From Chelonoidis abingdonii (Eukaryota; Chordata; Testudines; Testudinidae), in contig NC_133770.1 of NCBI RefSeq assembly GCF_003597395.2, positions 94,846,206 through 94,910,205 on the forward strand: a stretch of 64,000 bases of DNA, written 5' to 3'. Under the pieces are notes generated by a model. It did not search any database. It saw only the letters and a list, made by a program, of their open reading frames with translations, and was not told where the DNA came from. Shown here one piece after another: positions 41,201 to 58,450 of this stretch (within the stretch, counting starts at the first letter, position 1; each line of letters starts with the position of its first letter). The position numbers and the translations under genes are program-made.

Positions 41201-43879
41201 GTTGCTGAGTATTGGCTGATACATTTGGAAAAGATATTGTATATGCCGCATAATGTTGTCTTATTGTTTAGAATGGCCCTCTGGAAGCTTAACTAAAATA
41301 TTTCCGATTTTTTTCCTCCCTCATGGATGCATGCTATTTGATTACTGTGGGGTTCCACATAAGTGCTGGCCTGCTGGCTATATTTTATTTATAGATGCTT
41401 CAAAGTCAGTGTATTATCCATTTGTTCTGGAGTGAAAAATGCAATGTGGACTTGCCAAACAGATACAAGGACATAAAGCAGGTCATGTTTAGGGCTTGCA
41501 AACCTTGAATGTCTGATGACTATTTTCATATGTTCTATAGATTGGAAAGCATGGATTGCAATTTTCTGTTAAAATTATTTTCCAGTTGTTCATATAGTCT
41601 GGAATGAACTGTTAATCTTCTAAATCTGATCCCCACACCAAGGCAGTTTAAAGCTAATCATTTTTCAATATTAACTACTTTATTTTGAGGAAGAAGAGCA
41701 AATGTTTCAGGTGTTTGGCAGCTAGGTTAGTTTCTGATTGATTGTGTGGTAGAAAAGATCCATGGCTCAGTTTAACTGCATGTGATATGTCAAGTTGTCG
41801 TACATTCAAAATGCAGGACATTTAAAAATAAATTAAAAAACTGTATACTAATGATCTTAAACTCCATTTGCCCAGCGTGGGTAGGAATCTTTTGCTAAGT
41901 GAGTGCTATCAATTTCTGCCGAATCTCATCTTTCATCTAAAATTTTGGCATGCTTACAATTGCAAAGAAAACCTTCCAGATATGAACTGAGTGTAAACTG
42001 TGAAGTGATGTTGTCATAAATCTGCAAAGTTAGCTCTGTCAGGATGATGGGACTGTCACTCCTGTGTGGGAGCTCTTAATTGCTGTCTGCTGTTGGAATG
42101 GTTGTACACATGGGGCATGCAGAGGCACTGAGTCTTAGGTTTAGGGTTCCCTGCTCTCTTGCATCTCCTAAAACAGGATGCCAGTGGGCTCCCCAGTCTT
42201 CCCATCAAAGGCGTCTGTAATCACTTATTTAAGGTGAGACAGTCTACACTTAAGTGTTTTGGGAGAACTTTCAGCATTAATTTATTTGTGAGAGAGGTAG
42301 CATACGTTGTTTGGAGGGTGAGTGCGGGGGGGAGAGGGCGGAAAAGTGGCCCACCACTGTTTGGTTTATTGGAGATGGTATTAATTTCTTGTGTACATGG
42401 TGATGGAGAACTTAATTGATATTGGTGCTTACATCTCCAATTCAGTGCGTAACCCTCCACAGAGTTCGGCCAGTAGGAGAGCGATGTCTTTAGGCCCAGT
42501 CAGCAGGACATACTTGACTGGGTAGGTGTCAATTGGGAGGGACATGGCTTAGGACACTGGTGTATTTCAACTAAGAGAGTGGGCTTAATTATTGGGCATC
42601 TTGGTGTTAAAACATTTTTAAATTCTGTAAGTGTGGAATCAATTTCTTTGAAGTTACAGAACATATTGCATTAAAATATGTAAATATGCAGTAAATGAGT
42701 AACTGCATCTCATTTTTACTATAAAGTGTATATATGATTAGACAGTAGGGTCTGTGTAAGCTTTTCACATTCTACTATTTTAGTAACATTTTAAAATTAA
42801 ATAGAATTATTATATACTTACAGGAAGTTATTAATTTTTTAAATTGTATTTGGCCTTGGTTAACATTAATAGGTTGACAAGTTATTTGTAACTTACCTGT
42901 ATTTTCACAATAAGTACAGTTACATTGTTTCCTTTTAGAGTAGTTCTAAAAACATTTAATTATAAGCTAGACCAAAGTAATCCAAATTGTTCTCCTTAAT
43001 TGACTATTTGCATTTGAAATTTGTTCTGAAATTAAAGTATCTGTGTGGAAAACTAAGAAAAAAATTGAGGTGATATCTGCTATCCTGTTCCAATCCTGCA
43101 AGGTTATGTAACTGAAATGCTGTTACATTTCAGTTCAGTGTGGAACAGCAAAAGGAATTAGACATCCCTTAGGCATAAGACATAAAGGATATTAAAAACA
43201 GAAACAAACTCATAATCAAATTAATGTTCTGTGCTGGATGCCTTTGAAATCAAGGTTTATAAATACAGTTTCAGAAGGGTTATGTCTAAGGTCAGGAATA
43301 AAAGCATTCCACAAACTGAGGCACACGTGTAAAAAATCTTAACAATACCTGTTGTCTCTGCAGACCCCAATCTTCAGAAATCCCATATGTTTTCAGTAGT
43401 CCGTAAGCTAAACCCTAAATAATCCATTGGTATCATTAGGTGGGCAAAATCTCTTCCTGAGTTTTGGATAGCTCTATGTCAATGGATGATAAAAAGTTAT
43501 GGTGGACCTTCCTGCAGAGTAGATAGGTTCAGTCCTACCTCTAATTTTTTTGTTGGCAAAATTCCTTAAATGCAATTTTTTGTTATATAATTTAAATGAA
43601 AGGTAGCACACTTTGATTATATTTTATTTAGCACATTGTTTATTAATAAGCAAAAAAGAGTATTTTGGTATCACGTTAGACATTAATTTCAAATCTAAAT
43701 TTACAAAATATATTATTAAACCACTTCTGCCATCTAAATACCACATAATGTTTTTTTTTGAAGCTTTTTCAATGCTACTAATGTTGTATGTTCTGCCATA
43801 ACATTGAGTGACATATTAAGCCTACAATAATATAAAATGGATAACCTATTAACAATCCAGTGTTCCACATATAACTGGA
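38206..43879 (+). other. SEPTIN7 intron 2, proximal part
   Basis: AT-rich intron with few recognisable repeats. I looked for the P-loop exon (GESGLGKST-type) and did not see it. The block at 42040-42480 is somewhat less AT-rich but unassigned. Confidence 0.5.
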
Positions 43880-46523
43880 ATGTCATCATCTGAACTGTCC
43901 TCCTCATTCGTATTCATTTATTTGCAGCCTACATGCTGGAGAGCATTTGCGTCCATTTGCAAGGCACTGGAAAACAGGGAGTTTATAGTCTGTATTGCAT
44001 TTACAAGCTATCAGCTGCAACGCTACCTCAGGGGTGGATGGACCTTTCATCCATTCAGTTGTCAGTTCACCCTGACCCAGCCATGCCGTGTTTCAGGGCT
44101 GGGTGTGACAGGATACTTCTCCAGGCTCCTACACCAGACAGCAGCCTCGTAACTGGCACACAAAACATGAAGTTAGTGGAAGTCTTTCCATGGAGACAGC
44201 TAGCCAGATTCAGCATCTCCCTTCTTAGCATGGAACAGCTGGTATCTTAGCTCATTCCCCTCAGTCATATTTGACCAAGCTGCATACGTTCTATAGGTGA
44301 ATTTTTGAAGGAGAGAGATCTGTAGATAAGACCCAGTGTTGCCCTAGCTCTGCCAGTGCTCTCTGAAAGAGTCTCTTCTCTGGTGATCAGCTTTAGGCCA
44401 GTCACCTCCCGACATTCTGCAAAATGTGCTAACAGAATCACATCCAGTGAATGCATGCATTCCTAACATGTGTTCAGACTTTCTAGTGTTGCTTGCTTGC
44501 TTGTTTGCTTGTATATACTTCATGCACTTTTTTTGATATCACGTCTTATGTAGATTTTACTGATGTCCCTGAAGAGAGGAAGAGTAAGAATTACCACATC
44601 AGTGTCCTCGGATACAACAACTCATTCGTGGTTCTTTGATGCATGCTTTACGTGTAACATAATCAGTGTCTGTCTCTTGTTGTGAAGACTAAGTTCAGAA
44701 AGTTTGATGCCCCTTCTCTGGTTAAACGTGTTACAATCTTTCTGGCACATCACACTGTTTTCTTACCTAGTTTCTCCAGGAAATTGGGGCCTTTTCAATT
44801 CATCATATAAGAACTTGATGAAAGCAGTCTTGCTGGTATAACATCCAAGAACGCTGTGCCTCCATTGTTGGGTCTTGTAACTAGATATAATGTTGTTCAG
44901 TAGTCCTCCAGGGCCAGACCTTTTGTTTTCCCTCCCTGAATTTTTAATGGAGATATTATTTTACACATCAAAGATCATCTCTGTGCTGCTGTTGTCAGTT
45001 CCAGTCTTCAAGACTGACAGACATGCTCTGACAGATCACTATATGTTTTGTTCTCAACATTTATTTTCTGTACAAGAGCCTTTCCATTTATGATGCAGGC
45101 AGAATGACTAGGTATTCTCAGCTGTTACTTTTTTTTTTCTCTCAAGATTCCTTGCCAGAGCTGCTTTGCCTCTCTCATGGTGCTATCAAAGTTGGAGAGA
45201 GCCCAAGGCAGTGATCCTAAGGAGTGTTGCAACACTTCCCTCATGTCCAAATTCCTCCTTGCTGCTACCAAAAGCAGTATGGCCAAAAAAAATCTTGTGA
45301 TCTGCCTTTAATATAATCTTTTCTGATGCTTTTGTTTTACTGGATTTCTGTGTCGTTGCATATCTTCAGTTTTTGCTTTGGCAGACTGTCATAGATTCTC
45401 TGGGTTGACTGCACTGTTTCTAGCCAGCTACGTGTCAGTGCTGTGTATGCACCTTCTCCTTTCTTATTTGCATGTAACAGATCCTCTCAAATGCCTGCAA
45501 GAGCTGCAGAATTAGTGGAGACAGGCTAACTCATTTCTCTCTGAAAAAGGATTGACCCCATCTTCTCCAGTGTATATATCTGTGACTGCACATCTTTTTC
45601 ATCTCTCTATATGCCTGATGGTTCTGCATGAGATATGCCAGGTGTTTAGACTTTGATCATTTGTCTTAGTTTCCTCAGACAAGTACTTCTGCACCCTGCC
45701 CCAGCTGTAAGACTGAATCCTTTGGTTTCACCTGCTGTGTCTGTGCCCTTATTGACGGTCTCGTCGATGGCTTGATCCACAGTGGTTTGATAACCTCATC
45801 TGTATAGAAAAGCCGCCATTTTTAAAAATTATCGTGCACTTCAGGATGTTGTATTTCAGTCATGTAATTTATGTGTAGTATACTAACAGACATCTTGCAT
45901 AATTCTGCTTGTCTTAAGAAAAGTACCAGGATATTCTTGCTCTTACCATTGCTAGGTGAAGAAGCCAGTCACCTTCTCTGGATGCTCAAATAGACCAAAG
46001 AGCCACCTCAACCATATCAGTGTAGATAATCCAGAATGCTGATAGCTTGCCATTTTCATGCTTCAAGAAGTTCAGATGTGTGTTGAAAACTGAAAGATCA
46101 TCAAACATCTGTCCTGTGTTTGGACATCATTTAGCTGTTCCTGTGTAGTGTTGCTGCACAACTTTTCCATCTTGATTATTTTCGTTGAGGCTTTAAGTGA
46201 ACCAGGTGGTGTTCATTCAGATATAAAAGCAGGGCCTCATACACTGATTTATGTAATCTGACAGCTCAATTGTAGTTTTGTCCCTCCAGTACACTCCTGA
46301 TGAAACCTTCAGCAATAATACTGAACTCAGCTGTGGGACCAGCATCCTGGAATCCTTTCCCAATGATCAGAGACATACTGCGTATGTGTGAAATGTTCCT
46401 ATTCTGATTATGGACTTGAGTTTGTCATCCTTCCGCAGTATTTCTGCAGCCTTGGCATACAATGGTGAAGCACACATTCTATCTTTCAAGTCAAGTTTTT
46501 CCAGTGTTTTCAGTCTTCAGGAT
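43880..46523 (-). pseudogene. Relic of a large uncharacterised protein, C-terminal half (FEN/XPG-like motifs)
   Basis: No host gene name can be given. On the minus strand, frame-shifting but recognisable coding sequence runs from about 46520 to 43880. In order it shows an IIRIGTFHT-type block (about 46425-46385), a Leu-rich LDMREVLQHSLGSLPWALS block (about 45260-45200), an ETDT...LHVKHAS block (about 44690-44640), VVSEDTDVVIL (about 44622-44590), GMHAFTGCDSVSTF (about 44465-44420), and a Cys cluster (ISCKCN, then CSPAC) near 44020-43910. I recall this motif order from multi-copy 'uncharacterized' proteins in fish and cnidarians. The E-x-D, D-x-D and GCD acids resemble the FEN/XPG-type PIN nuclease core; that is inference. 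Several stops and shifts make this copy dead. Its N-terminal half lies beyond the DIRS insertion. Confidence 0.6.
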
Positions 46524-47004
46524 TCTTCTTCAAGTGATTGCTCATATCCATTCCAGTTAGGTGTGCGCACATCGCGTGCACGTTCCTCAGAAGACTTTTT
46601 ACCCTAGCAACACTCGGTGGGTCAGCTGGGCACCCCCTGGAGTGGCACTGCTATGGCACCGGATGTATACCCCAGCCGACCCAGCCACCCTTCAGTTCCT
46701 TCCTACCGCCCGTGTCGGTCGTTGGAACAGTGGAGCGCGGCTTAGCTGACCTCCACTTCCCTAGCTACTCGTAGTTCTCGTTCGTTATCATGTATATAGT
46801 TATAATCCTTTTTATATATATATGCGTTTTTTTCTTTACTAACATAGTTAGTTTAGTAATAGTTAGCGGGGTTCGGGGACTAGCCCCTTCCCCGCACCCG
46901 GTGCCGGAGCTCACCGGGTTTCAAACCGTGTTCGGCCTGCCACAAGCCGATGCCAACAGGAGATCCACATGACTCCTGTTTTGAAGTGCCTCGAGGAATA
47001 GCAC

Positions 47005-47580
47005 TTGACAGCTAAGTGCCCCATTTGCAAGGCTTTCAAGCTGAGAACAAAAAAGGAGCAGGACATCAGGCTTAAGCAGCTCCTCATGGAGGCGGCCCTC
47101 ACCCCTCCACTTTCAGCACTGAGCACTGGTCAGTCGGTGAGCAGAAGCGCCTCTGTGGCACCGGACTGCACCGGTACGCCCAAGGACTCGCGGCATCGAA
47201 CGTTGCCGACACTGAAGTCAGCTCAACGAAGCTCTCTCTCCCCGAGGTTGAGAGAGGCCAAGACTCCTGCTGCTTCGGCACCGCCCGCACCGCAGCCTGA
47301 GAGTACGCCTAAGTCGGATCGCCCGGCGCCGACACCTGCTGTGGCACCGACTAAATCGGCACCGTCAATTCCGGTCCCACAAGGGCTGTCGAGTCTGGCG
47401 CCTGTTAGCTCCCTGGCGCGTGCCGCGGTAGAGCTCACCATGCCGTCCACGCCAGAGGCATTCTCAGCAGCGAGGGACCTGATCACCCTGACAGACTCGG
47501 CACTGCCCCTACCCCCGGCACCGCCAGTGAGGGTAATCCAATCCATAGGCAAGCTGACCACCCTCTGTCGGTGCAGCTGA
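47005..47580 (+). pseudogene. DIRS gag-like ORF fragment
   Basis: A 191-codon open frame begins with CPICKAFKLRTKKEQ, a Cys-containing and basic segment, and continues with Ser/Thr/Pro/Ala-rich sequence typical of the low-complexity gag-like protein of vertebrate DIRS elements. Coding-like sequence continues to about 49020 in shifted frames (for example 48190-48543 and 48720-49019). The product would package element RNA. The assignment rests on position and composition rather than on a conserved fold. Confidence 0.6.
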
Positions 47581-49079
47581 CCGGCACTGCTCACGATTGT
47601 GGTCCCGCAGACGCTCCAGGTCCAGACAGCGCTCCCGCTCTCGACGCCGTTTGCAGTCCCGCACTGTTCTACTTCACGGCACCAGTCAGACTCACGGCAC
47701 CAGTTGGACTCTCGTTCACTGGCTCATTACACATGGCACCGTGCCTCCCAAGGCCATTCACGATGCCAGGATTCGAGATCTCGGTTGACCTCCAGGCACC
47801 GATCTGGTCGCAGGTCCTGCTCTCGATCCCGGTACTCATATGCATCCCGGCACTGGTCCCCGATACCAAGGGGAGCCAGGTCCGTTGGAACATCTGCACA
47901 AGGCTGCTTCGCTCCTCCATGGCCATCCAGGCATACATCGGTGTCCTCCCATGCGGACAGCTACTATGGCCAAGACCGCAATTCCGATGTGTTTCAAGAA
48001 GCCCGATCTCAGGACCCAGGACCTCACCAGTGGTCCTTTTGGACACCTTGGGCGTACCACCAGGCCCAAGGTGCTCCGCTAGTTCCGGCCCGCTCCGCTT
48101 CGTCAGAGCACTGAGCACCAGAGGCCACAGTTAGTCGTCGTCCTCCACCCGGGACGGAGGAACGACTACTCCACCCACCGGGTTCCCCGGTGCCACTGGA
48201 GCAGGAACCGCTGCAGGAGCAAGAGGCCATACAAGACCTGCTCGTCCCCGGCGTTTCATCTTCTTCCTCTGCAGATGAGGCAGTGTCAGGGACTTCCTCC
48301 TCGGGGCCGCCTCCAATAGACCTAAGAGCCCATCAGGACCTCCTCAGGAGAGTGACGTTCAACATGAACCTCCAGGTGGAGGAGGTCCCGGAGGTTGAGG
48401 ACCCTGTAGTGAGCATCCTGTCGGCAGATGCCCCCACTAGGGTGGCTTTGCCCTTTATCAGGACCATCCAGGCTAGTACAGACACCTTATGGCAGTCCCC
48501 AGCCTCCATCCCCCCTACGGCAAAGGGGGTCGAGCGCAAATAGATGGTACCCTCTCGGGGGTACGAGTATCTGTATGTCCACCCTCCTCGCTGGTTGTCC
48601 AATCGGTCAACGAGAGGGAGCGCCATGGCCAACAGGCACCAGCCCCAAAGTCAAAGGAGGCTAGGCGAATGGACCTACTCAGCCGCAGGGCGTATTCGGC
48701 AGGCGCCCTACAGCTCTGAGTGGCAAGTCAGCAGGCTCTACTGAGCCGTTATAGCTACAACACCTGGGCAGAGGTGGGTAGATATACAGAGCTACTCCCC
48801 CCGGACTCCCGACAGGAATTCGCTGCATTCCCAGAGGAGGGAAAAAAAGTAGCCAGAACCTCCCTCCAAGCTTCTCTAGATGCGGCCGACTTGGCAGCTA
48901 GAACTCTGGCTTCCGGTATCACCATGAGACTCATCTCATGGCTACAGGTGTCCAACCTACTGCCTGAATTACAATATACCATCCAAGACTTACCCTTCGA
49001 TGCTAAGGGTCTGTTCTAGGAGAAGACTGACCCCAGGCTACAAAGCTTGAAAGACAACAGGGTCATCATGCGCTCCTTG

Positions 49080-50219
49080 GGCATGCATGCACCTGTGACC
49101 CAATGCAGACCTTTCCGTCCCCAGACTCACCGCCTGTACTTTGTGCCCAGACACAGGCAAGACTTTAGTAGACAGCGCGGGCATGGTGGCCGTAGACGTC
49201 AGGCCGGACCCCAAGGGGCCCAAAACCACGGCTCCTCAAAACCACCAGCGGGGCCTAAGTCTACCTTTTGAAGGTACACCCAAGGATGGCGTACCAGTTT
49301 CAGGACAGGATCCTTTTCCTCCCTTCTCCAACCACCTCTCCTACTTCCTCCCGGCGTGGTCCCAATTGACCTCAGACCTATGGGTCCTACGCACTGTGAA
49401 ACAAGGATACCACCTCCAATTTGTTTCATCCCCGCCTTTCCACCCTCCCACCTGGTCTCTCTTCAGGGACCCCTCTCACGAGCAGTTTCTCCTACAAGAG
49501 GTGCAGACGCTCCTCGCCACAAGAGCAATAGAGGAGGTGCCACAAGACGAGAAGGGCAAAGGGTTTTATTCCTGGTACTTTCTGATCCCCAAGTCGAATG
49601 GAGGCCCATCCTAGACCTGCGAGGCCTCAACAAGTTCATGATAAAGTTGAAGTTCCACATAGTCTCCCTAGAGACCATTATCCCATCCTGGAGACTGGTA
49701 TGCTGCCCTCGATATGAAGGACGTGTACTTTCACATCGCCATTTTTCCTCCACACAGGAAGTGCCAACCAACAGCACTTCCAGTTCACGGTCCTCCCGTT
49801 TTGGCCTCTTCACGGCCCCAAGGGTGTTTACAAAGTGCATGGCTGTAGTCGCCGCACACCTCCGCCGACGTCGGATACACGTATTCCCGTATCTGGACGA
49901 CTGGCTCATCAGAGGGACCTCTGAGACACAGGTCAGACAGCATATAGACATTGTCAGGGACCTGTTCACATGCTTAGGCCTGATGCTCAATGTGGAGAAA
50001 TCCACACTGGTCCCCACACAAAGGCTAGACTTAATAGGAGCTACCGTGGACTCCAATCTAGCCAAGGCCTACCTACCCCAACCACGATTCCAGGCAATGG
50101 CAATGATCGTTCTAGGTCTGCAGAACTTCCCGACGACCTCGGCTCACACCTGTCTCGGTCTCCTAGGTCACATGGCTGCCTGTACTTATGTGACCAAATA
50201 TGCCAGGCTCCACCTCTGA
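49080..50219 (+). pseudogene. DIRS reverse transcriptase, frameshifted
   Basis: The catalytic block VFPYLDDWL lies at about 49888-49914, giving the YxDD signature. The preceding RT block LDMKDVYFHI is encoded at about 49707-49736 but in another frame. A 'FYSWYFLIPKSNGG' block sits at 49565-49606 in a third. These breaks show the gene is inactive, although every expected RT block is still present in order. It overlaps the RNase H frame at its 3' end. Confidence 0.8.
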
Positions 50220-51169
50220 CCCCTCTAAATGTGGCTCAACTCGGTCTACTGTCCGGGCAGGGACCCGATAGACACAATAGTCACCATTCCCCCGAGCACC
50301 CTACGCTCCCTCGACTGGTGGCTAACACCCTCCCTGGTATGTGCAGGGTTACTGTTCCATCTGCCACAACCCTCAGTGTCCCTGACGACGGACGCATCAT
50401 CTCTCGGATGGGGGGCTCACCTCAGACACCTTCGTACCCAGGGCCTTTGGTCACCATAAGAGCTGACGCTTCTCATAAATGTCCGAGAGCAGAGAGCGGT
50501 CCGCCTAGCATGCCAGACATTCCAGCAGCATCTACATGGCCGTTGTGTCTCAGTGTTTACAGACAACACAACGGCCATGTATTATATCAACAAACAGGGA
50601 GGGACTCAATCTCCCCGCCCCTCTGTCAGGAGACCATCCGACTCTGGGACTTCTGCATAGCCCACTCGATAGACCTGGTAGCGTCCTTTCTCCCAGGGGT
50701 TCAGAACACTCTAGCGGATCAGCTGAGCAGATCCTTCCTCTGCCACGAATGGTTGATAAGACCAGATGTTGTTCATTTGGTCTTTCAGAAGTGGGACTTT
50801 CCCCACATAGACCTGTTCGCCTCTTGCACAAACAGGAAATGCCAGGCGTTCTGCTCCTTCCAGGGTCTTTCACCGGGATCAATCTCGGACGCATTCCTCA
50901 TGTCATGGAAGCACCGGCTGCTCTGTGCCTTCTCTCCATTCCCACTGGTTCACAAGGTCCTGATAAAACTCAGCAGGGACAGAGCGCACCTAATCATGAT
51001 TGCACCAGCGTGGCCCAGACAGCACTGGTACACCACACTGCTCAGCCTGTCCATAGCCAGCCCAATTACCCTGCCTCTCCACCCGGACCTCATAATGCAG
51101 GACCATGGCAATATTCACCACCCGGACCTGCAGGCCCTCCACCTCACGGCGTGGCTCCTGCATGGCTAA
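49970..51169 (+). pseudogene. DIRS RNase H region and linker
   Basis: The RNase H motifs TDASSLGWGA (about 50388-50417, in a second frame) and LADQLSRSF (about 50712-50738) mark the domain that removes RNA from the RNA-DNA hybrid. The 399-codon frame then covers the connecting region HIDLFASCTNRKC typical of DIRS polyproteins. One or more frameshifts separate the first RNase H motif from the rest. Confidence 0.75.
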
Positions 51170-51171
51170 AC

Positions 51172-52217
51172 AGGTTGGAGTTATGCTGCTCCGCTCCGGG
51201 ACAACATATACTCCTGAGTAACAGACAGCCTTCCACTCGGTCAACATATCTGGCCAAGTGGGAACGTTTCTCCTGCTGGTGTGAAACGCAGACTACTACT
51301 CCCTCTCAGGTCTCAATCCCCACTATTTTGAACTACCTCTGGTCCCTTAAGCAGCAGGGCTGGTGATATCGTCTCTGAGGGTGCACTTGGCGGCGATCTC
51401 CTCATTCCATCCAGGGGAGAGTGGACACTCCATGTTTTCCCATCCTTTTAGTTACTAGGTTTCTCAAGGGCCTGGAGCTCCTGTACCCCTAAGTACGCCG
51501 CTCTGCCCCTACCTGGGACCTCAGTCTAGTCCTAAGCAGGCTTATGCTTCCACCATTCAAGCCATTGGCAACTTGCTCGCTGCTATACCTGTCCAGGAAG
51601 ACAGTTTTCTTAGTAGCCATTACATCGGCCAGACGAGTCTCCGAGCGCTAACGGTGGACCCACCGTATACTGTCTTTCACAAGGACATGGTACAGTTGTG
51701 ACCGCATCCGGCGTTCCTCCCTAAGGTGGTGTCGGCCTTCCATACCAATCAGGACATCTTCCTTCCGGTCTTCTTCCCGAAGCCTCACTCATCTTGACGG
51801 GAACAGCAGTTACATTCCTTAGATGTCTGTAGGGCGCTCGCTTTTTATATCAATCAGACGAAGAAGCCCTTCCGGAAATCGCCCCAACTCTTTGTTGCTG
51901 TGGCTGACCGGATGAAAGGCCTACCTGTCTCCTCCCAGAGGATCTCCTCTTGGATGACAGTATGCATCCGCACGTGCTATGACCTGGCTCATGTTCCCTT
52001 GGGCCATCTCACTGCACATTCTACCAGAGCTCAGGCTTCATCAGCCGCCTTCCTGGCCCATATACCAATCCAGGAGATATGCCGCGCAGCTACCTGGTCC
52101 TCAGTCCACACCTTTGCTTCGCGCTATGCTCTGGTCCAACAATCTAGAGATGATGCAGCCTTTGGCTCAGTGGTTTGCACTCTGCCACATCTCACTCCGA
52201 CCCCACCGCCTGGGTAA
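51172..52217 (+). pseudogene. DIRS tyrosine recombinase, frameshifted
   Basis: Instead of an integrase, DIRS elements use a phage-type tyrosine recombinase to insert a circular DNA. The N-terminal core-binding part (STRSTYLAKWERF) is at about 51235-51273. The C-terminal catalytic part carries HSTR (H-x-x-R), AATWSS and the likely catalytic Tyr in FASRYAL (52018-52135). The middle (51366-51900) contains shifts and stops. A broken but complete domain order supports a once-active element. Confidence 0.75.
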
Positions 52218-52221
52218 GGCT

Positions 52222-52574
52222 TGGGAATCACCTAACTGGAATGGATATGAGCAATCACTCGAAGAAGAAAAGATGATTACTCACCTTTGTAACTGTTCTT
52301 CGAGATGTGTTGCTCATATCCATTCCAAACCCACCCTCCTTCCCCACTGTCGAAGTAGCCGGCAAGAAGGAACTGAAGGGTGGCTGGGTCGGCTGGGGAA
52401 TATATCCGGTGCCATAACGGCGCCACTCCAGGGGGCACCCAGCTGACCCACCGAGTGTTGCTAGGGTAAAAAGTCTTCCGACGAACGTGCACGCAGCGCA
52501 CGCACACCTAACTGGAATGGATATGAGCAACACATCTCAAAGAACAACAGTTACAAAGGTGAGTAACCGTCTTT
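52222..52574. repeat. DIRS right terminus: inverted repeat and internal complementary region
   Basis: Positions 52222-52265 are the reverse complement of the first ~40 bases of the element. Positions 52300-52530 are the reverse complement of about 46530-46750, including the phrase GACCCACCGAGTGTTGCTAG. The motif CTCATATCCATTCC occurs in both orientations within 250 bases. Confidence 0.8.
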
Positions 52575-53950
52575 TTCATATACCATAGACACCTCCATTG
52601 TTGGCACACTTCTGGTTCCGAAATACCCAACACTGACCCGAGTCTCACTGCGCATACCAGTCCAGGAGCTGACCATCTGGTCATTTACATTTGTTTGCCT
52701 GACCAGAGACCATACTTGGTTCTTAATCTGAGTATTGTGAATGGGCTCTTCATAGTCTGTCCCCACTGGTTCCATCTCAGGAAGGCCAGCTTGGTTACAG
52801 ACATTATCAAGAGGAAGCATTAGTAGTGGAGGGAGTGATGCTGTGATTTTTTTGTTTATTTTTATTTTATACTGTCTCTGCATGTGTAAGCTCATTGGGT
52901 TGTCCAGTAGTTGGTACCTCAGGCTGCACTCCAATGCCGCTTATTCTGTGTGATGTCCCTGCACTACTGAGTGTCTTCAAGTCTGTTGATGATATATGCC
53001 AAAGGTGAGGATGCAGGACAGACCATTGGATGGTATTGCCACACCTGCCTTGTCCCATTAGTCAGTTTTTGTAGACAGAAGGCAATGTCCATTTCCTCCA
53101 GCCAACTTAAAGGATACCCCATAACCTAGTTGGTTGGTTATCTCATTGCCTGTGAGGTATTTCACTTACTATGGTAACAGAATTTGCTTGGCAGGTTTCT
53201 GCACACCTCCACTAACAGCATATATATGATCGTAAGGGAAAGGACAGTATGAGTCTTTGAGTTTATGAACGTGGTATGCTCTTTTGTGTTCCCAATTAAA
53301 GCCATTTTGGTGTCTCATTGGGCCACAGGTTGGTAACCACAGCTGTATAACAAGATCTGATACTGTGCATCAGCTGCTACCAGCTCCCTTGATGTAATAG
53401 CCAGTGTCTTTCCGTCCATCTACTCTTCTGCTCTTTTCTGTACATCACTACTTGACTTGATCTACTGCTTGATGCAGTGGGTCTTGATCCTTTTCACATG
53501 GATACTTTGTCACAAAATATACACACTTTTTCATTGTCCGATGGATGATGGTCTATTTCCCTTTTGATTTGTGGCCAATTTCTTCACTATCGCTGGAAGG
53601 TTCTGCTTGTTTCTCAAGCTGTTGCAGAATTCTGTTTTGTGTGAAAATCTTTCCACAGTTTAAGTGATAAAATGTGAGGTAGTTCGTTCGTATCTTTATA
53701 TTACACGATAGCAGCACATTGTTTGACCTATGTTGCTCTTAAAAAGATTCTTCCATGATTCCGGATCTTGCTTTTGTAAGGTCTGTGAAAGGAGCCTCCA
53801 CATCACATATCATGCATGTTTAGGCCTTCGCTGTTTGTGTATGCTTTTTGGGAACTTCTGAATTGGATTCCATGATTTATTCAGGAATCACAGGTGCATC
53901 ACAGTCAAATCTGAAGCAAACAGGAAGACATACATAAATCTTTGGTCACA
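52575..53950 (-). pseudogene. Relic of the same uncharacterised protein, N-terminal half
   Basis: This is the upstream part of the relic interrupted by the DIRS element. On the minus strand, broken frames show a Cys pair CMICDVEAPF (about 53815-53785), a second pair EKVCIFCDK (about 53545-53510), then ITSRELVAADAQY-like text (about 53400-53350). An open 127-codon stretch (52934-52551) follows, ending SVPTMEVSMVYE just before the DIRS junction. The two Cys pairs look like an N-terminal zinc-binding region. The reading resumes on the far side of the DIRS at about 46520 with an ILKT-like text, which fits a single original gene. Multiple stops make it nonfunctional. Confidence 0.55.
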
Positions 53951-54883
53951 ATACCTTATTGTATACAACTACCTAAATATTGATTTTAAGTTGGAAAAAA
54001 CAATACCTGTGGGAACACAGTAGTTTTTTCACATGAAGAGTGACCTCCCCCTTGTTGATAGGTTGTTGGCAGTTGCCATGGCAACTCCCATACAAAGTAG
54101 ACAAATTTGTATACATTTCATTATTTTAATGAAATGTAATTACCCAAAATTAGGTGAAGATGTATTCATTTTTAGTCAAAATATAGCCATACCCATTTTT
54201 CACTCCATGCTTACACTTACATTTTCCATGGAAACAGGCCTAACTCCACTTCTAAGCTACCATGCAGAAAGGCCCACCAGTATTTTTGTAGTGTGTATGC
54301 ATGGACCCTTCAAAACTAGATGGGATTTTGCCAACACAGATGAGTACCAAAAGTTATCTGGCTCATGGATAACAAGTATGAGATATAGAGGACCTGAAGA
54401 TGGTTGAAGTAGTTGAGAACCCAGTTTAAATGCTTTGCTTGTTAAAACCAAAAGCTGAATCTCATTTGTCTCACTGCATCTTGTTCAGAGTAAAGTGCAA
54501 GGCAGAGTTCCACTTCTGAGAACATTTTCTGAACCCATTGCATTCTGCAGTCATGTTGGTAGCTCACTGTAAAGCACATCAGTTTAACCTGAGTTGTCAG
54601 TAAGATGGACCTCATCCAGCCTAATTAAAATGATAGTGTACATTGACTAAAATATCATCTTGACCATAACTTGAACCTAAGTGTCAGACATCTTACATAC
54701 AATTAATACCAATCAGATTTTATCTCTCTCCTTTAAACTGTTGTATTACTGTGAGTAGTTATGTTGGTTGAGATTTTCATAAGTGCCTATGACTTGAGTG
54801 CAAGTCCCTTAGACTTTCAGTGGGGCTTGCTCTCCTATGCCCAGAATGTCTTCTGTACCTCCTTTAAGATGTTACTAGGCTAG
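53951..54883 (+). other. SEPTIN7 intron 2 segment with an RFX X-box palindrome
   Basis: Unassigned, apart from the perfect palindrome GTTGCCATGGCAAC at 54072-54085. The 5' part may belong to the flank of the relic element. Confidence 0.45.
54072..54085. promoter_or_regulatory. Candidate RFX X-box
   Basis: GTTGCCATGGCAAC fits the RFX consensus of GTNRCC and RGYAAC half-sites with a 2-base spacer and is a perfect 14-bp palindrome. Binding is inferred from motif only. Confidence 0.4.
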
Positions 54884-55229
54884 ATTGCAGTTAGGGCTGC
54901 CAAGTGATTAAAAAAGTTAATCACTATTAATTGTGCTGTTAATAATAGAATGGCATATATTTAAATATTTTTGGATGTTTTCTACATTTTCAAATATATT
55001 GATTTCAATTACAACACAGAATACAAAGTGTACAGTGCTCACTTTATATTTTTGATTACAAATATTTGGACTGTAAAAAACAAGAGAATTTTTCAGTTCA
55101 CCTATTACAAGTACTGTAGTGCAATCGCTTGATCGTGAAAGTTGAACTTACAAATGTAGAATTATGTACAAAAAATAACTGCATTCAGAAATAAAACAAT
55201 GTAAAACTTTAGAGCCTACATGTCCACAC

Positions 55230-55840
55230 AGACCTGCTTCAGCCAATGGCTCAGATAAAGAAGTTTGGTTACAATTTGCAGGAGATAATGCTGCCTGCTT
55301 CTTGTTTGTCACCTGAAAGTGAGACTAGGTGTTCACATGCCACTGTTGTAGCCAGCGTGACAAGATATTTACATACCACATGTGCTAAAGATTCATATGT
55401 CCTTTCATGCTTCAACCATCATTCCAGAGGACATGTGTCCATGCTGATGGTGGGTTCTGCTTGATAACAGTCCAAAGCAGAGTGGACCGACGCATGCTCA
55501 TTTTTATCATCTGAGTCAGATGCCACCAGCAGAAGGTTAATTGTCTTTTTTGGTGGTTTGAGTTGTTTCCACATCTGAGTGTTGCTCTCTTAAAACATCT
55601 GAAAACACGCTCTGCACCTCATCCCTTTCAGATTTTTGGAAGGTACTTCAGATTTTTAAACCTTGGGTCAAGAGCAGTAGCTATTTTTAGACATCTCACA
55701 TTGGTACCTTCTTCGTGTTTTGTGAAATCTGCGGTGAAAGTGTTCTTAAAATGAACAACATCTACTGGTTGGGTCATTATCCAAGTCTGCTGTAACATGA
55801 AATAAATGGCAGAATATGCATAAAACAAAACAGGAGACAT
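55230..55840 (-). pseudogene. hAT transposase fragment, minus strand
   Basis: An open stretch (55840-55628) reads VVHFKNTFTADFTKHEEGTN and ATALDPRFKNLKYLP, the LDPRFK motif typical of hAT (ZBED-like) transposases just before the dimerisation domain. Downstream (55600-55230) the frame is broken, with traces of the CP...W block and of the C-terminal 'R...SLSGD' text inside the left inverted arm. It is nonfunctional. Confidence 0.75.
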
Positions 55841-55879
55841 ACAATTCTTTTACAAGGAGTTCAGTCACAGATGTAATTA

Positions 55880-56130
55880 TTGCATTTTTTTTTAATGAGC
55901 ATCATCAGCATGGTAGTATGTCCCCTGGAATGGTGGGTGAAGCATGAAGGGGCATGTGAATGATTAGCATATTTAGCATATAAATACCTTGCAATGCCGG
56001 CTGCAAAAGTGGCATGCGAACGCCTGTTCTCACTTTCAGGTGACGTAAATAAAAAGCAGGCAGCAGTATCTCCCATAAATGTAAACAAACTTATTTATCT
56101 TAGCAATTGGCTGAACAAGAAGTATGCCTG
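55880..56130 (+). pseudogene. hAT transposase C-terminal dimerisation region, plus strand
   Basis: Plus-strand text contains CPLEWWVKHEG, then YLAMPAAKVACERLFSLSGD and NVNKLIYLSNWLNKK, with a stop in the middle. CERLFS and the NxNKL block are the hAT C-terminal dimerisation signature. The same region is present in inverted form in the left arm, so this is a duplicated copy produced by the fold-back structure, not a second gene. Confidence 0.75.
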
Positions 56131-56296
56131 AGTGGACTTGTAGGCTCAAAAGTCTTACTTTGTTTTGTTTTTGAGTGCAGTTATGTAACACAAATGATCT
56201 ATGTTTGTATGTTATACTTCACAATAAAGAGATTGCACTACAGTATTTGTATGAGGCTATTTCTTTTTTAATTTTTTCAGTGCAATTATTTGTAAT

Positions 56297-57036
56297 TGTC
56301 ATAAACAGATGGTTACGGGTTAATGTCTCTTTTACCTGTAAAGGGTTTAAGAAGCTCAGTGAACCTGGCTGACACCTGACCAGAAGACCAATTGGGGGAC
56401 AAGATACTTTCAGATCTTGGTGGAGGGAAGTCTTTGTTTGTGCTGTTTTGTTTTGTTCGTTGTTCGCTCTTGGGCCTAAGAGGGACAAGACGTGCAACCC
56501 AGGTTTCTCCTATCTTTCTGAAACAGTCTCTCATGTTCAAAATAGTAAATACTAGCTAGAAAAGGCGAATTAGTCTTATGTTTGTTTTCTTAACTTGCAA
56601 ATATGTATTTTGCTGGAAGGAGTTTTACCTCTGTTTGCTGTAACTTGGAATATCAGGCTACGGGGGAGGGAGTCCCTCTAGGCTATATAAATCTGACTAC
56701 CCTGTAAACATTTTCCATCCTAATTTTACAGAGATAATATTTACTTTTTTCTTTCTTTGATTAAAGCTTTCTTTTTTTAAGAAACCTGATTGATTTTTGG
56801 TTATCTTGTGTAAGACCCAAGGGGAGGGGGTCTGTACTCACCAGGGAATTGGTGAAGCCCCTCAAGGCCACCCAGGGAGGGGAGGGTTTTGGGGGGAAAG
56901 GGAGTGATCCAGACTCTGAAAATTCTGGATGGTGGTGGCGCTATCAGATCTAAGCTAGAAATTAAGCTCAGAAGTGTCCATGCAGGTCCCCACTTTTGGA
57001 TGCTAAAGTTCAAACTGGGGGAAAAATACCTTGATA
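56297..57036 (+). mobile_element. Solo LTR inserted in the hAT element
   Basis: It starts TGTCATAAACAG and ends ACCTTGATA (canonical CA mutated to TA). A perfect 5-bp TSD, gtaat, lies at 56292-56296 and 57037-57041. It has a TATA box (TATATAA, 56694-56700) and an ATTAAA polyadenylation signal (56760-56765) in the expected order for + orientation. Its length of 740 bp and TSD fit a retrovirus-like or Gypsy-type LTR. No internal coding region remains. Confidence 0.88.
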
Positions 57037-57258
57037 GTAATAAAAATATAAAGTGAGCACTGTACACTTTGTATTCTGTGTTGTAATAGAAATCAATATA
57101 TTTGAAAATGTAGAAAAACACCCAAAATTATTAAACAATAGAATACCAATTTAAATTTATTAATCAGTTTGATTTAAGTGTGATTGTTTTTTAACTCAAA
57201 AAAATTAATCCCAATTAATCGTGAGTTAACTGCAATTAACGACAGCCCTGTTTGCGGT

Positions 57259-58450
57259 ATATTTTCCTTTTAGTTGTAGCTATGATGAGCAACAAAATCT
57301 TGGCTTCATAGTTCTTTCTGGTGTTAGAAACATTTCTTGCTTAGAGTTTCATTATGACTTTTCTCTTGTCCTCTGGTTTAGCTGCATGTACAATTGCAAA
57401 TGTTAGATGTTCAGACTCGGTGAGTTTGGATGGTTTGTGGTTTACATATCTCTGCAGCTACAAGCATATGTGTTGTAAATTGCTGCCTGCACACAGTCAT
57501 GTGACTTGTTGCAAGTGCCTTCTCTGCAGTTCCTGTTGCCTGAATAGGTTTTCTGTAGCTCTTGTCTGACTCTAAACGCTCACTTCAAATCTCAGCCTGT
57601 GTATCTTCCTCTTGTATTACTTTGCATTTGTACTTCTCCTAGCTCTGTAGATAATTTTTGGGTTCCAGATTGTGGGAAAGATGATGTACCCCCTACTGTG
57701 GGTATTGAATATACTTAAAAAATTAAATACAGTTCAAAGTCACAAACTTAAATTTGACTATTTTAGGCTTGGAATTTTATACAAACGAACATGTACAGAC
57801 TTGAAAAGAGCCAAAGTACAGTCTTTGGTTTTAAAACATTTGTAATTTAAAGTGTCTTTTTAATGGAAAATGCATAGTTGCTGTAAGTTGAGTTAGGTTC
57901 TTCTGGTACTTGTCCATATTTCAGTTAGAATTGCCCTCTTAAATTGTCCACCTTGGTGTATAGCTTCCTTAATGGAAGCCAGCAAGTGTATGAAAGGAGC
58001 TATTTTACCAAGAGATGAGTGTAACAAAGGTCTCAAGCTAAGCCCAGTTAATAGGAATTTTAAATTGTAACTTGTCTATTTAAATTTGGTTCAACTTGTC
58101 ATTTCAACACTGATCAAGCTTTAGCTTGGCCAGTCACCTTCAGGGTGTTTTAAACAAAACATCATTAAATTGCTGAAATATTCTTTGAAAATTAGCTGTT
58201 GATTATTCATTTCATAGTATTGTTTAAAAAAATTTACACTGAAATCAATACACTTTTCACGTCTGTCTGCACCAGATCTCTTAACACTTGACCACTTTAA
58301 AATACTTTTAAAATCAGATTTTAAAATGGTTCTGCTAATGTTAAAGGCTCAGTGTGAAGAGCTTAATTGAACTTGTTTGGGATTAAGTGAATGGGAAATA
58401 GTTATCTGGGACTGAAAGTTTTTACTCCTTCCTATTATTTGTGCTATTGT
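57259..58450 (+). other. SEPTIN7 intron 2, no feature recognised
   Basis: AT-rich unassigned sequence with no recognised exon. Confidence 0.45.

Follow-up and report, generated by a model that had tools for sequence, protein, structure and literature searches.

A decayed transposon with terminal inverted repeats, probably of the Academ superfamily, carrying a putative FEN/XPG-like nuclease and a DIRS insertion in Chelonoidis abingdonii

The stretch of DNA analysed here, called the window below, comprises 64,000 nucleotides of Chelonoidis abingdonii (contig NC_133770.1, positions 94,846,206 to 94,910,205). Between its positions 43397 and 54372 lies the relic of a multicopy element: a pseudogene on the minus strand, flanked by degraded terminal inverted repeats (TIRs) and split by a DIRS retrotransposon. 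The relic is what remains of an ancient DNA transposon bounded by TIRs and now dead, most likely a member of the AcademX lineage within the Academ superfamily, a reading to which we give about three chances in four. The single long protein of this transposon would have joined cysteine-rich ends, a transposase part and a metal-dependent nuclease of the FEN/XPG type. The features of the locus are the following.

43397..54372, minus strand: entire decayed element, 10,976 bp with the DIRS insert; similarity to other copies ends there, and the exact ends are taken from the TAGTCC/GGACTA register
54257..54372, minus strand: 5' terminal inverted repeat, degraded; about 54357-54257 can be aligned with the 3' end, and the outermost bases are placed by register with other copies
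52560..53880, minus strand: 5' half of the pseudogene, the part before the DIRS insert, with the N-terminal Cys pairs (CMIC, CIFC); collinear in other copies and outside the coverage of the homologues P0002 and P0003
46514..52573, plus strand: DIRS retrotransposon within the element, with inverted terminal repeats and a reverse transcriptase; borders accurate to some tens of bases
45129..46513, minus strand: middle of the pseudogene, with RIGTFHT, VDQAIDETVNK and RNLDMREVL blocks; homology to P0003 (residue 35 onwards) and P0002 (residue 6 onwards) covers its later part
44370..45128, minus strand: relic of the putative FEN/XPG-like nuclease domain, with ACIING (N in place of the first acid), MIFDV, ETDT, VVSEDTDV and HAFTGCDSVS; placed by homology to P0002 and P0003
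43922..44369, minus strand: C-terminal part with a Cys cluster; placed by homology to P0002
43397..43522, minus strand: 3' terminal inverted repeat, degraded; covered by seven of the ten other 3'-end matches

All the minus-strand motifs named in a preliminary description of this DNA are present, in the order given there, as verified by their translations and coordinates. The N-terminal side of the relic holds CMIC (within 53819-53802), CIFC (within 53529-53506) and RIGTFHT (46405-46385). These are followed by ETDT (from 44676), LHVKHAS (44657-44637), VVSEDTDVVIL (44618-44586), HAFTGCDSVS (44457-44428) and the C-terminal Cys cluster (44008-43931). ETDT and HAFTGCDSVS are read in one frame, LHVKHAS and VVSEDTDVVIL in another, and stops are many; the relic is therefore a pseudogene.

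A composite query run against about 5.8 billion sequences drew 821 candidates, of which only two proteins, P0002 and P0003, matched with E<=10. Both are long open frames, with 44% identity between them across 547 columns. When the two were compared with the whole 64-kb window (tblastn, E limit 0.01), the matches of P0002 were confined to 45690-43922 on the minus strand (best E 1e-79) and those of P0003 to 45780-44110 (best E 4e-36). Since only the relic region of the window is matched, the motifs of the relic are not due to chance. Read conceptually, the 3' part of the relic shares 43% identity with P0002 across 586 alignment columns. Both homologues are without the N-terminal half, and the same half is decayed in the relic. 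Smaller queries (a 128-residue fragment and a 101-residue region) found no homologue, scans of viral and prokaryote contigs found no relatives, and searches of plasmid and phage proteins gave nothing beyond matches of E 2 and 7. The open reading frames at the viral-contig loci returned in these scans were judged to be chance matches. Similar 'uncharacterized' proteins may occur in many copies in fish and cnidarians, as the preliminary description suggested. In the C-terminal Cys cluster of P0002, residues 580-613 give a sub-threshold match to the CXC (Tesmin/TSO1-like) family, PF03638 (E 0.51).

On either side of the pseudogene lie the arms of a degraded inverted repeat, in which 43370-43522 pairs with 54257-54401 under one scoring. 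None of 100 block shuffles paired as well under each of three scorings, two of which gave near-global alignments and are of little weight. In a control under one scoring, a single pair among 281 random window pairs reached the score of the ends, and it is a different inverted repeat, located near 53688 and 56243. Related ends recur elsewhere in the 2.26-Gb genome of the animal. The 5' end has four other matches, three of which begin at window positions 54369, 54368 and 54366, and the 3' end has ten other matches at seven places, six of them reaching 43400-43394. When the copies are re-aligned, their similarity to the window ends within 54366-54381 at the 5' border and, for those that extend so far, within 43384-43398 at the 3' border; over all the comparisons the 3' limit falls at 43384-43400. 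In the better-kept copies one end is TAGTCC(A/G)TGAGC and the opposite end GCTCATGGACTA, which sets the ends in the window at 54372 and 43397, beyond the interval originally assigned to the relic. The 5' end in the window also matches the 3' ends of the loci L034/L047, L042 and L043 in inverted sense, and the 3' end also matches the 5' end of one locus, L031/L038. Such cross-matching of opposite ends between loci is expected of inverted repeats. By eye, a 12-base direct repeat could be made out close to the two ends, but the inverted repeats were preferred to it. Without its DIRS insert the element is about 4.9 kb long; the copy at L033 has a full length of 4,640 bp.

A search of the genome with P0002 gave 73 matches, several per locus, of which five are the window itself and 64 contain stops; these copy counts are lower bounds. 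None of the loci inspected, which are part of the total, showed an intact copy. Six weaker loci, chosen for frames that seemed open or long, turned out to be relics or fragments matching P0002 or P0003 in short pieces at about 21-40% identity. At the DNA level the copies share about 65-81% identity with the element in the window, and the family is therefore old in this genome. The idea of a mobile multicopy family is borne out by these 73 matches and by the terminal repeats around copies, a feature that the preliminary description had proposed to look for and that is found as related ends at other genomic loci, none of the copies seen being intact. More distant relics of the family lie at L052 and L053, where the last-acid block reads HALSGCKSTSAF and HVLTGCDSVS, respectively.

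The insert within the element has an open reading frame for a reverse transcriptase on the plus strand (RVT_1, E 6.9e-12) and a sub-threshold match to a tyrosine recombinase of the phage-integrase type (E 0.008). Homology to other copies runs up to 52574 and resumes from 46513-46502. These points are no more than 14-29 bases apart in L033, L034, L035 and L037, so the DIRS element is missing there. The four copies without the insert, the inverted repeats and the RVT_1 match together confirm the earlier statement that the relic is split by a DIRS element. The insert is a DIRS retrotransposon that entered an older element separately and later, and it does not belong to the nuclease gene. The copy at L036/L037 (contig C3, about 157.22-157.23 Mb) contains DIRS-like sequence at a different place, near the equivalent of window positions 44632-44636, and this sequence is 67-69% identical to the DIRS of the window.

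A 3-bp target-site duplication is suggested by the sequences flanking the ends. Over the five copies with both ends, the three bases outside the ends match at 9 of 15 positions (3, 2, 2, 2 and 0 of 3), a count equalled by one of 399 other registers (mean 3.9), the anchors having been chosen after the ends had been inspected. AcademX elements are reported to have target duplications of 3 or 4 bp and AcademH elements of 9 or 10 bp, a difference tied to the encoded nuclease and helicase (PMC10045372), and curated Academ elements of molluscs have a mean length of 5565 bp (PMC10294476). The likeness of our element to Academ and AcademX lies in its terminal inverted repeats, its length of about 5 kb, its probable encoded nuclease and the suggested 3-bp duplication. 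The window copy differs in that it is no longer alive and is interrupted by a DIRS element. Because the probable nuclease, the suggested duplication length and the element length agree with the published descriptions, the element is filed most likely under AcademX. The earlier view of an undescribed family with no clear published role is therefore probably wrong.

The same inverted repeats, copies and FEN-like blocks would also be seen in a cut-and-paste superfamily outside Academ that had independently acquired its own flap-endonuclease-type domain for second-strand cleavage or flap trimming. The likeness to Academ is by description only, which leaves some room for such a superfamily. However, the nuclease content, duplication length and element length agree with what the AcademX and Academ papers report (PMC10045372, PMC10294476), and an Academ fossil common to human and turtle is in print: a fossil in the human genome, found through turtle, was aligned to Academ-1_NV_tp (PMC9004415). 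A separate superfamily is an unlikely explanation, although the likeliest of the alternatives.

The acidic blocks of the putative nuclease domain occur in the order D...D...ExD...DxD...D, represented in P0002 by D213, D254, E351/D353, D376 and D433, and the same blocks occur in P0003. The relic retains all of them except the first, now N; at the second acid of DxD, P0002 has V, P0003 E and the relic D. This order is the likeness to the FEN/XPG 5' nucleases (FEN1, XPG, bacterial Xni and the N-domain of PolA), FEN1 spacings being among those compared. The EAD...D spacing of 25 residues is equal in P0003 and Escherichia coli Xni, and a G-x-G block is aligned after the last acid. The domain differs from FEN in the roughly 97 residues between its second and third acid blocks (P0002 254-351), and in belonging to a long transposon protein whose ends are Cys-rich.

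The NCBIfam model of the flap endonuclease Xni matches residues 406-542 of P0003 (E 6.9e-4). In BLASTP, P0003 and E. coli Xni share a piece with the first acid in register (IIDAMNLVQKI/IVDALNLIRRI, 20.4 bits) and an ungapped piece with EAD...SED and EAD...STD in register (13.5 bits). When eight rows of the family were compared with 14 FEN proteins by hhalign, the EADT/EADD, SEDT/DKD and last-acid/G-x-G blocks were aligned with E 0.036-0.054. Column shuffles did as well in 2 of 235 cases with the Xni anchor and in 4 of 235 with the PolA anchor, and smaller alignments gave the same blocks with E 0.079 and 0.12; this profile-profile evidence is only suggestive of kinship. The best stretch of P0003 under an ad hoc profile of bacterial and phage FEN proteins also falls on the same acid blocks. 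In Pfam, P0003 has a match to YacP-like NYN (E 0.079), a PIN-like family. Yardstick FEN proteins were sought in viral contigs and none were found there. The FEN/XPG resemblance pointed out in the preliminary description therefore stands as far as the Xni match, the acid order and the EAD...D spacing carry it; the FEN profile is non-significant, the structure models are unusable, and the kinship is supported but not proven.

Several observations weigh against the assignment to AcademX and against its nuclease. The ends of L033 pair weakly (16.6, compared with 29.5 for the window and 25.0 for the C3:157 copy, these values being without shuffle control). The final G of L033 is taken as a mutated last A, the other reading lowering the duplication count to 7 of 15, and the duplication is perfect in one of the five copies and absent in one. 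The element was placed by published descriptions of Academ, not by reference sequences, and the AcademX nuclease is taken here to be of the XPG type. As for the domain itself, the second aspartate of SEDTD is missing in both P0002 and P0003, and the Xni model does not match P0002. The BLASTP comparison of P0003 with Xni is non-significant (E 0.083), and an out-of-register piece of 16.2 bits outscores the EAD...D piece. The own probability of hhalign is about 1% (less than 1% with the smaller alignments). Under the ad hoc FEN profile, P0003 ranks 10th of 4002 sequences, beneath nine shuffled decoys. Pfam gave no match to XPG_N or XPG_I, the best Pfam match of P0003 being an unrelated PH domain (E 0.011). 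PDB searches gave no significant match and PHROGs no FEN match. Two predicted structure models, with mean predicted local distance difference test (pLDDT) scores of 33.7 and 35.2, are too poor to use.

These weak or absent profile matches, the low hhalign probability and the unusable models are what would be expected if the domain had another fold, outside the FEN superfamily, and its acid spacing had arisen by chance. That the best Xni, hhalign and ad hoc profile matches and two BLASTP pieces fall on the same blocks in register argues for the FEN kinship instead, and a chance resemblance appears improbable, slightly more so than a separate superfamily. A family of host nuclease genes, expanded by duplication and then decayed without any transposon, would account for the long open frames of P0002 and P0003 but not for copies with common inverted-repeat ends spread over many different contigs, and is very improbable.

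Taking the element as an Academ transposon, it is possible to outline its life. Academ is counted among the DDD/E superfamilies (PMC9587614). The transposase part would be a DDE enzyme, which may have excised the element at its TAGTCC...GGACTA ends, joined it at the TIRs and inserted it at cuts staggered by 3 bp. The FEN-like domain might have trimmed single-stranded flaps or cut the second strand, and the Cys-rich ends of the protein may have bound DNA. As the element most likely belongs to an already named group, identifying it is useful, but it does not represent a novel kind of transposon. The analysis offers a likely name and mechanism for a family of 'uncharacterized' proteins, and fixes the termini of an old family of elements in the genome of this animal. 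Its importance would rise if the role of the nuclease in transposition were demonstrated.

Two further observations concern the neighbouring sequence. The outlier of the end-pairing control is a strong inverted repeat pair at about 53688-57694 (score 86). Just outside the element, a possible relic of a hAT transposase lies at 55631-55849 on the minus strand (weak Pfam match to hAT-like_RNase-H, E 0.024).

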